A stretch of 64,000 bases of DNA from Candidatus Endomicrobium neocapritermitis. GTDB lineage: Bacteria > Elusimicrobiota > Endomicrobiia > Endomicrobiales > Endomicrobiaceae. Position 1 is the first letter of the stretch. Every line of letters starts with the position of its first letter. Where the stretch lies: contig WRJZ01000053.1 of the NCBI GenBank assembly GCA_009778325.1, positions 1-64,000 of the forward strand, written 5' to 3'. The notes under the pieces were generated by a model. It was not told where the DNA came from, did no database searches, and saw only the letters and a list, made by a program, of their open reading frames with translations. Of the stretch, positions 829 to 60,318 are shown piece by piece. The position numbers and the translations under genes were made by a program.

Positions 829-831
829 AAA

Positions 832-960
832 AGAGTGAAGAGTGAAAAGTGAAGAGTGAAGATACGGCAACAGATAATTTGTTGTCATTGCGAGCGGGCA
901 AAGCCAGCGCGGCAATCCAGAGTTGTTATCTTCACTCTCAACTCTTCAATCTCTACTCTG
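832..960. repeat. Heptamer-armed inverted repeat (GAGTGAA type) with TCATTGCGAG core
   Basis: The left arm (832-874) is four or five drifting copies of a GAGTGAA/AAGTGAA heptamer; the right arm (927-960) is the complementary TTCACTC/CTCTTCA series. Between them lies a TCATTGCGAGC...GCGGCAATCC palindromic module (about 893-918). It fills the tuf-rpsJ gap and could fold into a long hairpin in RNA or DNA. Confidence 0.8.
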
Positions 961-1071
961 TCTCTGTAAAGTTTATCCTCTGGCGGGGAGTTGCCGTATC
1001 TTGAAAAAGATACATAGTCTGGCAGCGCAAACTTTGCAGGAAAAAGCAAAAAAATAAACAGGATTGAAAAC

Positions 1072-1398: not shown

Positions 1399-1403
1399 AT
1401 AAA

Positions 1404-1495
1404 GGCAGAAGATTAGAAGTTTGGAGAGCTTAGAAGTTTGGCAAAGGCGAAGTCGTTGCTAAACTTCCAAACTTCCAAGCCCTCTAAGCTTCCAT
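1404..1495. repeat. GAAGTTTGG-type inverted repeat
   Basis: Left arm 1404-1440 (GCAGAAG, TTAGAAGTTTGG repeats) is complementary to right arm 1459-1495 (AAACTTCCAAACTTCCAAG, CTAAGCTTCC). The loop is a short version (GCAAAGGCGAAGTCGTTGC) of the core seen at 9804 and 48043. It occupies the whole rpsJ-rplC gap. Confidence 0.75.
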
Positions 1496-1508
1496 TAAGA
1501 GAGAAAAT

Positions 1509-4141: not shown

Positions 4142-4149
4142 TTAAAAAA

Positions 4150-4275
4150 GACAGAGTGTAGATTGAAGAGTGTAGAGTATAGATGTTGTGTTTCGGCGAA
4201 GCCGAAACGTATTTATAGGTTTTCGCTTCGCGAAAACTCTTTATCTAAACTCTAATCTCTAAACTCTAATCTCTG
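4150..4275. repeat. Three-way-junction repeat, copy 1 (GAGTGTA arms)
   Basis: Outer arms of GAGTGTAGA-like heptamers (4150-4185) pair with CTAAACTCTAATCTCT repeats (about 4241-4275). Inside are two perfect 8-bp hairpins: GTTTCGGC-GAA-GCCGAAAC (4190-4208) and GTTTTCGC-TTC-GCGAAAAC (4219-4237), separated by a 10-nt AT-rich linker. Same layout as copies at 19333, 22774, 33450, 34339, 34821 and 43506. Confidence 0.85.
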
Positions 4276-4295
4276 ATGTTAAAAGGGAAATAAAA

Positions 4296-5053: not shown

Positions 5054-5058
5054 AGAAA

Positions 5059-5146
5059 GGCAGAAGACGGGATGATGAGCAGGCGGGCAAAGGCAAAGAC
5101 TTTTATGACCGGAGCTCCTCTCAACATCTCAGCTTCTCAGCTTCTA
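5059..5146. repeat. GAAG-type inverted repeat with conserved core
   Basis: Left arm 5059-5084 (GCAGAAGACGGGATGATGAG) and right arm 5121-5146 (CAACATCTCAGCTTCTCAGC) are imperfectly complementary. The core 5085-5120 contains GGCAAAGACTTTTATGACC and GGAGCTCCTC, the same core as at 9804, 48043 and 60220. Confidence 0.7.
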
Positions 5147-5166
5147 AAAAAGGGTAAGGCAAAAAT

Positions 5167-9084: not shown

Positions 9085-9172
9085 CGGCAATTACAAATTA
9101 CGAATGACGAATTACGAATCAACGGCAAAGCCGTCATTGCGAGGAGCGTCGTAGACGCGACGAAGCAATCCA
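9085..9172. repeat. AATTACG heptamer run plus TCATTGCGAGGAGC palindrome
   Basis: 9087-9122 is a run of AATTACA/AATTACG/AATGACG/AATTACG/AATCAACGG heptamers. It is followed by CCGTCATTGCGAGGAGCGTC...GACGCGACGAAGCAATCC, a palindromic repeat of a kind seen in many bacterial genomes. The complementary heptamer arm is absent, so this looks like a half-element. Confidence 0.7.
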
Positions 9173-9197
9173 TTAAGTTTACATAGAGGAATAAACA

Positions 9198-9764: not shown

Positions 9765-9766
9765 TA

Positions 9767-9872
9767 ACGGCAGAAGCTTAGAAGTTTGGAAGCTCGGAAG
9801 TTCGGCAACGGCAAAAGGCTTTAACGACCGGAGCTGCTCCGAACTTCTGAGCATCCGAGCTCTCCGAGCTTC
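9767..9872. repeat. GGAAGTT-armed repeat with conserved core
   Basis: Left arm 9767-9803 (GAAGTTTGGAAGCTCGGAAG) pairs with right arm 9841-9872 (GAACTTCTGAGC, CCGAGCTCTCCGAGCTTC). The core 9804-9840 reads GGCAACGGCAAAAGGCTTT then AACGACCGGAGCTGCTCC and is shared with the elements at 5085, 11393, 13717, 18193, 40840, 48043 and 60220. Confidence 0.8.
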
Positions 9873-9887
9873 AATAAGAGGATTTAG

Positions 9888-11359: not shown

Positions 11360-11474
11360 GCGGAAGTTTTGAGGTTTGGAAGCTTGGAAGTTTTGCAAAA
11401 ACAAAGATAACGTCAAAGACAAAACGACCATAGTTCCTCTAAACTTCTAAACATCCAAGCCTCTAAGCTTCTAA
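11359..11474. repeat. GGAAGTT-armed repeat with conserved core
   Basis: Left arm 11359-11392 (GAGGTTTGGAAGCTTGGAAG) pairs with right arm 11441-11474 (AAACTTCTAAACATCCAAGC, CTCTAAGCTTC). The core 11393-11440 contains AAAGACAAAACGACC and AGTTCCTCT, an A-rich variant of the shared core. Confidence 0.75.
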
Positions 11475-11487
11475 ATAGGAATACAAT

Positions 11488-18155: not shown

Positions 18156-18272
18156 ACGGCAGAAGTTCGGAAGTTTGGCAGCTCGGAAGTTCGGTAAAGA
18201 CAAAGGCAATGTCAAAGACAAAACAACCAAAGCTCCTCTGAGCTGCCAAGCTTCCAAGCTCTCTGAGCTTCT
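18156..18272. repeat. GGAAGTT-armed repeat with conserved core
   Basis: Left arm 18156-18192 (GAAGTTCGGAAGTTTGGCAG) pairs with right arm 18241-18272 (AGCTGCCAAGCTTCCAAGCT). The core 18193-18240 contains AAAGACAAAACAACC and AGCTCCTC. It separates the ribosomal cluster from mreB. Confidence 0.75.
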
Positions 18273-18288
18273 ATAACGGAGTTATAAA

Positions 18289-19317: not shown

Positions 19318-19332
19318 GAATACTATTTTCAG

Positions 19333-19457
19333 GGTGAAGTGTGAAGTTTGAAGAGTGAAGTTGTTGTGTTTCGCCTTCGGCGAAACTTATTTTAGGTTTT
19401 TGCTTCGCAAAAACACATTAACTCCACACTCCACACTCCAAACTTCTAACTGTCCTA
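19333..19457. repeat. Three-way-junction repeat, copy 2 (GTGAAGT arms)
   Basis: Outer arms GTGAAGTGTGAAGTTTGAAG (about 19333-19362) and CTCCACACTCCACACTCCAA (about 19421-19450) are complementary. Inner hairpins: GTTTCGCC-TTC-GGCGAAAC (19368-19386) and GTTTTTGC-TTC-GCAAAAAC (19396-19414), with a 9-nt AT linker between. Confidence 0.85.
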
Positions 19458-20799: not shown

Positions 20800-20801
20800 A
20801 A

Positions 20802-20916
20802 GGCAATTACGAATGACGAATCAAAGACAAAACAAAAAAATAATTACAGATTACAATTTATTCGTAATTGCCGTTGTCGTTCGCTGTTGATTCGTCATTC
20901 GTAATTCGTAATTGTC
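20802..20916. repeat. AATTACG-armed inverted repeat
   Basis: GCAATTACGAATGACGAATC (20802-20822) pairs with GATTCGTCATTCGTAATTCG (20889-20908 and beyond). A second inner pair, AATTACAGATTACAATTTAT against ATTCGTAATTG, lies in the loop, which also holds AAAGACAAAAC like the class II core. Confidence 0.7.
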
Positions 20917-20934
20917 TTCATAGGGTATTTTTAA

Positions 20935-22755: not shown

Positions 22756-22773
22756 TAATCTTAGTCGGTTATT

Positions 22774-22890
22774 AATGATAAATGGTTAACGGTTAATGGT
22801 TAATGAAGGAGCGCGCGAAGTGCGCCTGTTAATAAGCGGGGCTTTGCCCCGCACAACAATTTATCATTTATCGTTAACCATTAATCATTG
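22774..22890. repeat. Three-way-junction repeat, copy 3 (GGTTAAT arms)
   Basis: Outer arms: AATGATAAATGGTTAACGGT plus TAATGGTTAATGA (22774-22806) pair with ATCATTTATCGTTAACCATT plus AATCATTG (about 22861-22890). Hairpin 1 GCGC...GCGC (22811-22825), 10-nt linker, hairpin 2 GCGGGG-CTTTG-CCCCGC (22836-22852). Same core layout as copy 1 with wholly different stem sequences. Confidence 0.85.
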
Positions 22891-22908
22891 AATTTTTAAA
22901 GAGGACTA

Positions 22909-24258: not shown

Positions 24259-24326
24259 CTGCAATTACGAATTACGAATGACGAATTACGAATCAACGGC
24301 AAAATGAAAAGTTCAAAAAGGATAAC

Positions 24327-28506: not shown

Positions 28507-30783
28507 ATGAAAATGAACGGCAATTACGAATTACGAATGACGAATTATGAATCAACGGCAATTCCTCACCCTCTTGCTTCGCAAGAAGAGGCAAGGGAAA
28601 ATACTTTTTTGTCTTTGATTCGTAATTCGTCATTCGTAATTCGTAATTGCCGTTTACTCGCTTTAGCCCTGTTCCTGAGCGCGCAATGTTTCATTTCCGA
28701 TGTTTATGCGGGAAATCCATGGCCGAATGATCCTGATTTTTTAGTTGGTGTTGCGGGTCATCCAGGCAATCCAGTCTATCCATCCACAACTTTTACAGGA
28801 TATGGGCATGGTGATGCGGATATAGAAAAACAGATTCACCTGTTAGCTGAGATGGGTGCAAAAATTTACCGATTGGACTCTAATCCTCCCATAGACCAGT
28901 TGGAAAAGATAATCACACTTTGTGAAAAATACGGTATTGAACTTCTGCTGATCACCGGCGGTACCCCTTCAAGCGTAGTGAGATGGTTTAAAGGAAGAGT
29001 CAAATACTATCAGGTGGGTAACGAGATGAATCTTCAGGCGCAAAAATCTGGCAATGGAACTCAGATAAGCCATTACTGGATGTCGACAGATACAGAACCT
29101 CTGCCTGCGGATAAGAAATATTTGGATGTCATGATCAGCAACACCATCCAAACCATCAAGATAATTCGCGCGGATGATCCGGACGTGAAGATCCTGATCA
29201 ATGGAACAGGTGTACATTACGCTTTTCTTGATTATGCTTTTGAGGAATTTGCGAAAGCGGGCGTTGACATCGACCTTATCGGCTGGGACTGGTATTCCTT
29301 TATGGAAAACAACAGGACAACCCATTCTTCCGCCATAGACGGCTTGAACAGTGTCGCAAAATTTATGTATGACCGTTACGGTAAGGATATTATAATTTGC
29401 GAATACAATATGGCTCCTTCTTACTTTGATATGGTGCAGCTTAATCCGCAGCATATTCCATTTCTTCCCGGAAACGGAAACGGTATAATGGACCTTTTCG
29501 AAGAAAATAATATGGATATATTAGTGGGACCCTATTTGGTCAATAATATTCAATATTTGTATAAGAATAGAGGTGAAAATCATATTAAAGGTATTATGAT
29601 TTATGAGCTCATGGAGCAGCCGGGTCACCTCAGCCAGTGGGAAGCAAAATACGGCATAACATATGCCAAAATGCTCAATCTTAGTCAAAGACGCTATCAG
29701 ATATTGGGGCCAAAAGCAGCGTATTACCATGTCCAAAAACTCCTCGGCGGCGGTTTTGTGCCGATACAAAGATTGAATCCTTCCGTGGTAATTCCCGAAC
29801 ATACGATAACAGCGTCAGTTATAGACGAGGACACAGACGGCACAGTTCTGTCCTCGCAAGCAGGCGGCACAGTTACCGGAAGCGGTATATACCGAGAAAA
29901 CTCTGTTGTTACACTGGCAGCTGCCGCCAAACCCGGATACGAATTTCTGGGCTGGTACAGAGGCGGAATAAGAATCAGTAAAAATCCTGTTTATAAATTT
30001 ACAGCTTATGAAGACGCCAGCAATGCCGACAGAGATAGCGCCGAAGGAAAGTTTGCGTATGAAGCAAGGTATGTTTTCAGGGGCGCTTATGAAGGAGCAG
30101 TAATAACATTTCCGGTAATATCAAAAGACGGCGCTCAAAGCACCGGAATGCTGACAGTGCCTGCAAAAACATTCAGCGCGAATGTGGAAATCGATGTGAA
30201 ACAGTACAGCAAATTCATTTTAGCGCCTGCGGAATCGTATGTGAGAGAATTAAGTCATACGAATATAGGTGCGATTATAAACGCGCAGGGCAAGCCGGAA
30301 AAGGAGATGGAGCTGAAAATACCGTATAACAATTCGGACATAACCGGAATGAACGAAGACACTTTGGTGATATCAAGATATGATGAAGAAAAACAGGTAT
30401 GGGTTCCGTTAAAGTCAAAAGTGGACAGTAATAACAAACAGATAATAGCCTATATAGATAAAGTATCGATATATGCCATAATGGGAACGGCAAATGCGCT
30501 AAAAGCGTTTGAGAATATGAGATATTATCCGAATCCGCTGCAGCCGTCAAAGGGACTGAATTATTCAAAGATGAATTTTGCGAATATGCCGCCGGGAACA
30601 CACATAAAGATATACACAATGTTGGGACAAGTAGTACGAGACTTAGAAGCAGACGCAAGCGGAATGGCAGTTTGGGACGGAAAAAATAATGCAGGCGAAA
30701 AAGCTGCAAGCGGAGTGTATATAATATACATGAAAGACAGGAACGGAAATAAAAAGAGAATAAAAATAGCAGTGGAAAGATAA
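28507..30783 (+). CDS. Large secreted glycoside-hydrolase-like protein (clan GH-A type) with InlB-like and FlgD-like domains
   Basis: 758 residues as read from ATG 28507. Probable order: repeat-encoded N-terminus (1-46), hydrophobic signal core LLALALFLSAQ (about 50-60), a TIM-barrel-like region (70-430) with YYQVGNEMN (candidate acid/base E173) and DIIICEYN (candidate nucleophile E299), an InlB B-repeat-like segment (GYEFLGWYRGGI, about 475), a beta domain, and a C-terminal FlgD/sorting-type Ig domain (YPNPLQPSKG, then GVYIIYMKDRNG). TTG 28609 with AAGGG 11 nt upstream is an alternative start giving a compact signal peptide. Substrate unknown. Confidence 0.72.
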   Translation: MKMNGNYELRMTNYESTAIPHPLASQEEARENTFLSLIRNSSFVIRNCRLLALALFLSAQCFISDVYAGNPWPNDPDFLVGVAGHPGNPVYPSTTFTGYGHGDADIEKQIHLLAEMGAKIYRLDSNPPIDQLEKIITLCEKYGIELLLITGGTPSSVVRWFKGRVKYYQVGNEMNLQAQKSGNGTQISHYWMSTDTEPLPADKKYLDVMISNTIQTIKIIRADDPDVKILINGTGVHYAFLDYAFEEFAKAGVDIDLIGWDWYSFMENNRTTHSSAIDGLNSVAKFMYDRYGKDIIICEYNMAPSYFDMVQLNPQHIPFLPGNGNGIMDLFEENNMDILVGPYLVNNIQYLYKNRGENHIKGIMIYELMEQPGHLSQWEAKYGITYAKMLNLSQRRYQILGPKAAYYHVQKLLGGGFVPIQRLNPSVVIPEHTITASVIDEDTDGTVLSSQAGGTVTGSGIYRENSVVTLAAAAKPGYEFLGWYRGGIRISKNPVYKFTAYEDASNADRDSAEGKFAYEARYVFRGAYEGAVITFPVISKDGAQSTGMLTVPAKTFSANVEIDVKQYSKFILAPAESYVRELSHTNIGAIINAQGKPEKEMELKIPYNNSDITGMNEDTLVISRYDEEKQVWVPLKSKVDSNNKQIIAYIDKVSIYAIMGTANALKAFENMRYYPNPLQPSKGLNYSKMNFANMPPGTHIKIYTMLGQVVRDLEADASGMAVWDGKNNAGEKAASGVYIIYMKDRNGNKKRIKIAVER
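28515..28655. repeat. AATTACG-armed inverted repeat inside the 5' end of a gene
   Basis: GAACGGCAATTACGAATTAC (from 28515) through GAATCAACGG pairs with TGATTCGTAATTCGTCATTC and GTAATTCGTAATTGCCGTT (ending about 28655). The loop holds CCTCACCCTCTTGCTTCGCA and AGAAGAGGCAAGGG, another repeat module. The whole element lies within the reading frame of the secreted protein. Confidence 0.85.
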
Positions 30784-30900
30784 ACGGCAATTACTAATTA
30801 CGAATTACGAATCAACGGCGAACGACAAAAGCAATTACGAATTAACGGCAGCGAAAGGTGAAAGATCGGCAGTTCAGCAGCTCGGCAACGGCAAGGGCTT
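30784..30900. repeat. Tandem AATTACG and GGCAGCTCGG repeat debris
   Basis: CGGCAATTACTAATTACGAA, TTACGAATCAACGGCGAACG, GCAATTACGAATTAACGGCA and then GGCAGTTCAGCAGCTCGGCA followed by ACGGCAAGGGCTTTAA. Half-arms of two classes lie side by side without right arms. The remaining 30901-31050 holds nothing I can assign. Confidence 0.6.
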
Positions 30901-33449: not shown

Positions 33450-33586
33450 GGCAATTAATAATGATAAATGGTTAACGGTTAATGGTTAATTGCGGAGTGC
33501 GCGAAGTGCACCTATTTAATAAGCGAGGCAAAGCCTCGCACAATAATTTATCATTTATCATCAACCATTTATCATTATTAATTGCC
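33450..33586. repeat. Three-way-junction repeat, copy 4 (GGTTAAT arms)
   Basis: Left arm GGCAATTAATAATGATAAAT plus GGTTAACGGTTAATGGTTAA (33450-33489); right arm TTTATCATTTATCATCAACC then ATTTATCATTATTAATTGCC (33547-33586). Hairpin 1 GTGC...GTGCAC (about 33497-33511), 11-nt linker, hairpin 2 GCGAGGC-AAA-GCCTCGC (33523-33539). It accounts for most of the 306-nt gap 33365-33671; 33587-33671 shows no other feature. Confidence 0.85.
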
Positions 33587-33671
33587 GTTTTTGCTTTTTC
33601 AGCCAATAAAACTTATAATAAAGACAAATCTCTAATCTTCAAACTCCATACTGCAGTTAAAAGGATATTTA

Positions 33672-34334: not shown

Positions 34335-34338
34335 AAAT

Positions 34339-34467
34339 GGCAATTAATAATTAACAAATAACAATGAATAATGTCGGAGTTTCGCGAAAGCGAAACCTAA
34401 TTAATAAGTTTTTGCTTCGCAAAAACACAATAATTGTTACTTATTATTTGTTAATTGTTAATTGCCG
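34339..34467. repeat. Three-way-junction repeat, copy 5 (AATTAACAAATAAC arms)
   Basis: Left arm GGCAATTAATAATTAACAAA then TAACAATGAATAATG (34339-34373); right arm ATTGTTACTTATTATTTGTT then AATTGTTAATTGCC (34433-34467). Hairpin 1 GTTTCGC-GAAA-GCGAAAC (34379-34396), 11-nt linker, hairpin 2 GTTTTTGC-TTC-GCAAAAAC (34408-34426, identical to copy 2). Confidence 0.88.
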
Positions 34468-34482
34468 TTAAAGGGGGAATTA

Positions 34483-34806: not shown

Positions 34807-34820
34807 AATTAGTTGTTGCT

Positions 34821-34944
34821 ATTGTAAATGATAAATGGTTAACGGTTAATGGTTAATTGCGGAGTGCGCGAAGCGCACCTATTAATAAGCGAGGCAAAGC
34901 CTCGCACAATAATTTATCATTAACCATTTATCATTGTTAATTGT
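34821..34944. repeat. Three-way-junction repeat, copy 6 (GGTTAAT arms)
   Basis: Left arm GTAAATGATAAATGGTTAAC then GGTTAATGGTTAAT (34821-34857); right arm AATTTATCATTAACCATTTA then TCATTGTTAATTGTC (34908-34944). Hairpin 1 GTGCGC-GAA-GCGCAC (34864-34878, perfect), 10-nt linker, hairpin 2 GCGAGGC-AAA-GCCTCGC (34889-34905, identical to copy 4). Confidence 0.88.
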
Positions 34945-34963
34945 CGTTTACGGGGGTAATTTA

Positions 34964-43503: not shown

Positions 43504-43505
43504 AG

Positions 43506-43631
43506 GCAGAGTGAAGAGTGGAGAGTGAAAAGTGGAGATATTGAATTTCGGAGAAGCCGAAATCTAATTAATAGGTTTTCGCATAGCGAAAACACTTTAT
43601 CTCCACTCTCCACTCTTCAATCTTCACTCTG
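43506..43631. repeat. Three-way-junction repeat, copy 7 (GAGTGAA arms)
   Basis: Left arm GCAGAGTGAAGAGTGGAGAG then TGAAAAGTGGAGATA (43506-43540); right arm TATCTCCACTCTCCACTCTT then CAATCTTCACTCTG (43598-43631). Hairpin 1 ATTTCGG-AGAAG-CCGAAAT (43545-43563), 11-nt linker, hairpin 2 GTTTTCGC-ATA-GCGAAAAC (43575-43593). The changed G-to-A and C-to-T ends of hairpin 1 are compensatory relative to copy 1. Confidence 0.88.
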
Positions 43632-43654
43632 TAGTTAAAAATGGAGTATATTGT

Positions 43655-57568: not shown

Positions 57569-57571
57569 AAA

Positions 57572-57728
57572 AGGCAATTACAAATTACGAATTACGAATT
57601 ACGAATCAACGGCAAAAGACAAAAAGGCAATTAAGAATAAACAAATAAAAGCCATCCTCTTATAAATGTGTATAAATTGTAGTTAAGTAGTTGTAGTTGA
57701 TTAGTAATTAGTAATTTGTAATTGTCGT
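57572..57728. repeat. AATTACG-armed inverted repeat
   Basis: GGCAATTACAAATTACGAAT then TACGAATTACGAATCAACGG (57572-57612) faces GTTGATTAGTAATTAGTAAT then TTGTAATTGTC (57695-57727). The loop (about 80 nt) contains GGCAATTAAGAATAAACAAA and is not obviously structured. Confidence 0.65.
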
Positions 57729-57765
57729 TATATTACTATTTATAAAAAAATGGTTTCAAAATAAT

Positions 57766-60184: not shown

Positions 60185-60185
60185 A

Positions 60186-60301
60186 GACAGAAGTTGAGAA
60201 GTTGGGAAGCTGGGAAGTTGAGCAAAGACAAAGGCAACGAAAAAGACAAAACGACCACAGCTCCTCTCAGCTTCCCAACTTCTCAGCTCTCTAAACTTCT
60301 A
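60186..60301. repeat. GAAGTT-armed repeat with conserved core
   Basis: Left arm 60186-60219 (CAGAAGTTGAGAAGTTGGGA, AGCTGGGAAGTTG) pairs with right arm 60269-60301 (CAGCTTCCCAACTTCTCAGC, TCTCTAAACTTCT). The core 60220-60268 contains AAAGACAAAACGACCACAGC and CTCCTC. Confidence 0.8.
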
Positions 60302-60318
60302 AAATGGAGAATTATAAC

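Follow-up and report, generated by a model that had tools for sequence, protein, structure and literature searches.

Dispersed palindromes built around two hairpins in Candidatus Endomicrobium neocapritermitis: a candidate family of MITE-like mobile elements

A stretch of 64,000 nucleotides from Candidatus Endomicrobium neocapritermitis (assembly GCA_009778325.1, contig WRJZ01000053.1; hereafter the window) holds seven copies of a repeat whose layout is constant while its stem sequences change. The question that this raises is what is being maintained in such a repeat, and at what level. A preliminary description of the seven copies proposed that they fold as a three-way junction and took their kept pairing as a signature of selection, or of a copying mechanism, for structure. 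We have followed the repeat through its genome and its relatives, and have asked whether it behaves as an RNA structure, as a mobile element or as the product of a mutational process.

The seven copies and the layout they share

All seven copies are present where they had been placed, each with an outer stem, a hairpin, an AT-rich linker of 9-11 nt, a second hairpin and the return of the outer stem:

Copy 1: 4148..4284, minus strand; between rplB and rpsS; arms of GAGTGTA-type heptads; hairpins 4190-4208 and 4219-4237, with the linker at 4209-4218; canonical reading of the core on the minus strand
Copy 2: 19330..19455, minus strand; GAGTGAA/GTTTGAA-type arms; hairpins 19368-19386 and 19396-19414
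Copy 3: 22769..22892, plus strand; arms of TTAATGG-type heptads; core 22801-22862, its hairpins GCGC and GCGGGG
Copy 4: 33450..33590, plus strand; TTAATGG-type arms; core 33487-33549; in a divergent gap
Copy 5: 34336..34470, plus strand; arms of ATTAACA-type heptads, ends TGGCA/TGCCG; hairpins 34379-34396 and 34408-34426
Copy 6: 34818..34945, plus strand; TTAATGG-type arms; hairpins 34864-34878 and 34889-34905
Copy 7: 43504..43636, plus strand; arms of GAGTGAA/GAGTGGA heptads; hairpins 43545-43563 and 43575-43593

Given the two-hairpin module, the linker and the arms, a single strand (or a cruciform) would fold as a three-way junction. In agreement with the fold predicted earlier, every copy as single-stranded DNA beats its dinucleotide shuffles (z -3.5 to -11.3), the value of -11.3 belonging to copy 7, which begins immediately 3' of the upstream gene's stop codon. 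A script for the layout (two near-perfect hairpins 6-16 nt apart within a paired outer stem) matched five of the seven copies in the window, with zero matches in ten order-1 Markov shuffles of it. The script is strict on stems; because it loses AT-rich hairpins, copies in whole genomes were counted with a covariance model instead. The model, R1, was built from 40 copies, part of them from the window, so that its recovery of all seven (at 4180, 19358, 22801, 33487, 34369, 34854 and 43535) is not independent, whereas its matches elsewhere are. Nor had the repeat been recognised as a named family, and Rfam concurs: above gathering score its models found one tRNA only in the window, and over the copies they gave sub-threshold noise alone, at copies 4-6.

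The element is non-coding, mostly 115-139 bp long and typically about 125-135 bp. It runs from a TTAACGGCA-like end into an arm of some five units of 7 nt each, then through GGA, hairpin A, CTATTAATAA, hairpin B and ACA into the complementary arm, and it carries variable terminal inverted repeats of the AACGGCA.../...TGCCGTT kind. That the outer stem consists of 7-nt repeats of several sequence types is absent from the preliminary description. At least six types of arm heptad occur, including GAGTGAA, GAATAGA, AGTTCAA, ATTAACA, TTAATGG and TAGTGAG, and conservation is higher in the centre than in the arms, one core being common to arms of many sequences. The stems do not differ as freely as had been supposed but fall mostly into a few sequence classes (GTTTCGGC, GTTTTCGC, GTTTTTGC, ATTTTTGC, GTGCGC and GCGAGGC), hairpins A and B being drawn for the most part from GTTTCGGC and GTTTTCGC, which occur in both orders. 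In a copy set selected for good stems, the loops of hairpin B are common in both orientations (GAA 13, TTC 10; AAA 12, TTT 9), and those of hairpin A are asymmetric (GAA 14, TTC 3). The two-hairpin core also occurs, at L096 and L099 (about 1480-1660), inside a long and different composite array of hairpins spaced by ACATCAT.

Many palindromes without the core, also absent from the preliminary description, occupy other gaps of the window. One class has 8-nt arm units (GAAGTTTG/GAAGCTCG), no two-hairpin core and similar ACGGCA-like ends, and fills many gaps; another has ATTACGA heptads, and some of its members extend into open reading frames, adding peptides such as NYELRMTNYE or LIRNSSFVIRNC:

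8-nt-unit palindromes: window 1399-1508, 5054-5166, 9765-9887, 11360-11487, 18156-18288, 60185-60303 and others
ATTACGA-heptad palindromes: window 9085-9197, 20800-20934, 24259-24300, 28507-28655, 30784-30830 and 57569-57730

At window 829-1071 a TCATTGCGAG-type repeat lies within a GAGTGAA palindrome, and a relative of the same genus (G003) has the same palindrome without that repeat, which indicates one repeat nested in another.

Distribution, filled sites and empty sites

The preliminary description had allowed that a covariance search might find no excess of copies; in the genome and its relatives the excess is large. By the relatives of its SecY protein the window belongs to Endomicrobia, and its genome (G000, 2.38 Mb; family Endomicrobiaceae) gave at least 150 strand-wise R1 matches, which represent at least 113 distinct places as counted by hand from the match list, and copy 5 has about 40 close relatives there. 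Strand-wise matches in the same genus number at least 125 in G001, 96 in G003 and 3 in G004, and the R1 search of their congener G002 returned none. Genus g11 is also rich in the element, with 71 matches in G023 and ten in G014, and G085 and G086 are carriers too; an R1 search of 40-odd genomes of genus g8 found no element. Across the phylum Elusimicrobiota, 12 of 285 genomes had an R1 match at E <= 0.001. G026, from another family of the order, and genus g10 gave a few weaker matches, which keep the layout with other hairpin and arm sequences. No copies were found in the plasmid and phage records searched, and none in viral contigs searched for one exact core pattern.

Of 74 copies placed by their flanking genes, 62 lie in co-directional, 7 in convergent and 1 in divergent gaps (4 have no assignment on one side), and most begin right behind the upstream gene's stop codon. 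Short ancestral operon gaps and tolerated insertion may alone account for this bias. The ribosomal operon is instructive here. Across it G004 is collinear with G000 at about 80% nucleotide identity and, for several elements of the operon, has clean empty sites where G000 carries palindromes: the rplB-rpsS gap measures 171 nt in G000 vs 33 nt in G004, the gap after rplF 123 vs 9 and the gap before secY 128 vs 12.

Other sites are filled differently in different species. At rplB-rpsS the G003 element shares its outer end and the order of its hairpins with copy 1 of G000 but has other heptads in each arm. At the copy-7 site the palindromes have arms of GAGTGAA in G000, GTTAATA in G003 and GGTAACA in G001, they start 0-2 nt past the stop codon, the two-hairpin core is found in G000 alone, and G004 has no element; this could reflect either independent hits on one short gap or replacement of the arms in place. 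At the place of copy 4, G001 has a GAATAGA-type palindrome without the two-hairpin core. Two near-identical palindromes of 137 nt, of the same superfamily and also coreless, stand before rplD and rplW in G003 (L253). At one of these two sites the stop codon is supplied by the element's own TTAA, and no old gap sequence is left; there the old gap seems to have been replaced rather than a clean insert gained. Direct repeats of at least 5 nt flank 25% of copies, vs about 14% in controls, a weak excess from which we claim no target-site duplication.

Paired changes in the stems

In an alignment of 40 sequences 95.3% of cells are paired and 14 of 20 pairs show a double change. Double-changed cells number 131, against 45.0 +/- 7.6 in shuffles; sliding the partner by one column loses the covariation signal. 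Pairing had been described as always kept, and in 85 copies found by the model Watson-Crick pairs do fill 96.7% of stem cells, but the rule has exceptions (12 G.T and 24 A.C). When the most similar copies are compared, using model-found copies and not the set selected for perfect stems, there are 34 double and 53 single-sided stem changes, where independence would give 2.3 doubles. Stem changes are coupled, yet single-sided decay occurs too, and since such single-sided changes are found among the closest copies, simultaneous copying is not proved. These counts carry a bias, in that both model and alignment favour paired stems, and they come from related copies which are not mutually independent.

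The proposal of selection or of a copying mechanism for structure thus stands as regards strong covariation, and needs to be widened, as the element also behaves as a mobile, MITE-like repeat, with patchy presence and empty sites. Structure kept and a MITE had been set against each other as alternatives; both are partly true.

Origin of the family and its known counterparts

The repeat is dispersed in high copy, it is present or absent at the same sites in close species, and it has a fixed layout with paired stem changes. We hypothesise that it is a family of dispersed, non-autonomous, MITE-like mobile palindromes, and we infer that folded DNA is what the system uses, a reading that we hold to be somewhat more probable than all others together. 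Under this hypothesis a putative recombinase or transposase would recognise the folded DNA junction, and in replication or repair one arm would be copied from the other, so that pairing is regained. Through such arm-to-arm copying the letters may drift while the fold stays. The elements would settle between cistrons, where ancestral operon gaps are tiny and insertion may be tolerated. This explanation would require no cellular function. A bolder version, which we put forward tentatively and regard as rather doubtful, is that what is inherited and spreads is the shape of the DNA, namely that of a three-way junction with its short junction strands as the main conserved letters; stems and 7-nt arm units would be exchanged or rewritten in place by arm-to-arm copying, and one mobile system could appear as many unrelated-looking sequences.

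One alternative is a transcribed RNA element between cistrons (a processing site, insulator or stability hairpin) whose RNA fold is selected. The strong covariation would suit it, as would the 62 of 74 copies in co-directional gaps, mostly just past a stop codon, although such a bias is expected anyway with short operon gaps. A selected RNA fold predicts more G.U than A.C among arm mismatches. In the 62 copies between co-directional genes, by which the elements were oriented and where a weak effect could escape, the transcribed strand has 86 G.U vs 101 A.C (p 0.31); the core lies with transcription in 34 copies and against it in 24 (p 0.24). The RNA reading implied by the preliminary description is not supported, there being neither wobble asymmetry nor a significant strand bias of the core, which argues against selection at the RNA level and for a DNA-level fold or a copying process. 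G004, moreover, has the same ribosomal operon with empty gaps, and no Rfam family matches. An RNA element thus appears improbable to us, and the best supported reading is that the structure matters in DNA, not mRNA. A process free of any transposase, in which replication template switching, slippage by 7 nt and gene conversion between gaps would create palindromes, lengthen them and spread them, is in our view unlikely, for all that it would explain. It is consistent with the arm types that vary at one site between related species, with hairpin B loops in both orientations and with the one G003 copy that seems to carry flanking bases and to replace the old gap; template switching is a documented source of compensatory changes (PMC8794818), and motif replacement in the heptad-built stem of Nostoc trnL is on record too (PMC4476775). 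However, a two-hairpin module conserved down to its junction letters and enclosed by arms of many types has the look of a mobile unit, as does a load of more than 100 dispersed copies in certain species with zero in others, and different arms at one site could also come from independent insertion into the same short gap.

We give little credence to the idea that the element is an ordinary MITE, descended from a DDE insertion sequence and recognised via its terminal repeats, with the central hairpins as passive cargo: its terminal inverted repeats, its size, its dispersal and the empty sites agree with this, but the arms are less conserved than the centre, which many arm sequences have in common, a clear target duplication is not seen, and the core also lies in the different multi-hairpin array noted above. 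A REPIN mobilised by this genome's RAYT (Y1 transposase) genes is very improbable. Y1_Tnp genes do occur in the element-rich G000 (three) and G001 (two), but the carriers G003 (70% complete), G014 and G023 have no Y1_Tnp match, and order relatives with many such genes are mostly without the element. The three genes in G000 are of RAYT type and lie in L247, L248 and L249; in L247 and L249, and also in L250, the RAYT gene is flanked not by the element but by its own, unrelated GGGGACGTAG-like hairpin. With resident RAYTs attended by REPs of their own, and RAYTs unmatched in element-rich relatives, a REPIN/RAYT identity is disfavoured and the resident RAYTs are probably not the movers. The enzyme search, made through Y1_Tnp genes only, tied no candidate mover to the element, nor any enzyme of the IS200/IS605 kind, whose miniature derivatives have subterminal hairpins with cleavage and guide sequences and transpose as single strands.

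Known systems share several of these properties. Like the ERIC/IRU, Correia/NEMIS and RUP MITEs (PMC2229807), the element is short, non-coding, dispersed and mostly intergenic, with inverted terminal repeats, long stem-loops and same-site presence or absence in relatives; unlike them, it has arms of 7-nt tandem units, of many interchangeable types, round a conserved two-hairpin centre, and is without an established TA target duplication. It resembles REPINs and their RAYTs (PMC3116915, PMC2817692, PMC3733652) in having two hairpins per unit, more than 100 copies and intergenic placement, and differs in its long outer stem, in hairpins that do not form an inverted pair of one REP, and in that the search found no RAYT cognate to it. 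The P6b stem of the Nostoc tRNA-Leu intron (PMC4476775) is likewise a stem of 7-nt repeats whose motif class is replaced in situ while the fold is kept, but it sits in an intron at one locus, whereas the element has copies throughout the genome and two hairpins at its centre. Finally, template-switch mutations create and repair hairpins (PMC8794818) and would yield paired changes without RNA selection; template switching is, however, a mutation mechanism and not a repeat family, and for the element it is a candidate process. We did not find this architecture described in the literature searched, which covered few subscription journals. Provisionally, the family is MITE-like by behaviour and new in architecture.

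Covariation is usually taken as proof of functional RNA; here a large family has strong covariation without strand asymmetry. Its many near-neighbour copies and same-site pairs offer material with which to separate template copying from selection. Moreover, the family links to a mobile element, one with both filled and empty sites, two separate matters: the abundance of heptad repeats in some bacterial genomes and an unexplained swap of heptad class in a stem.
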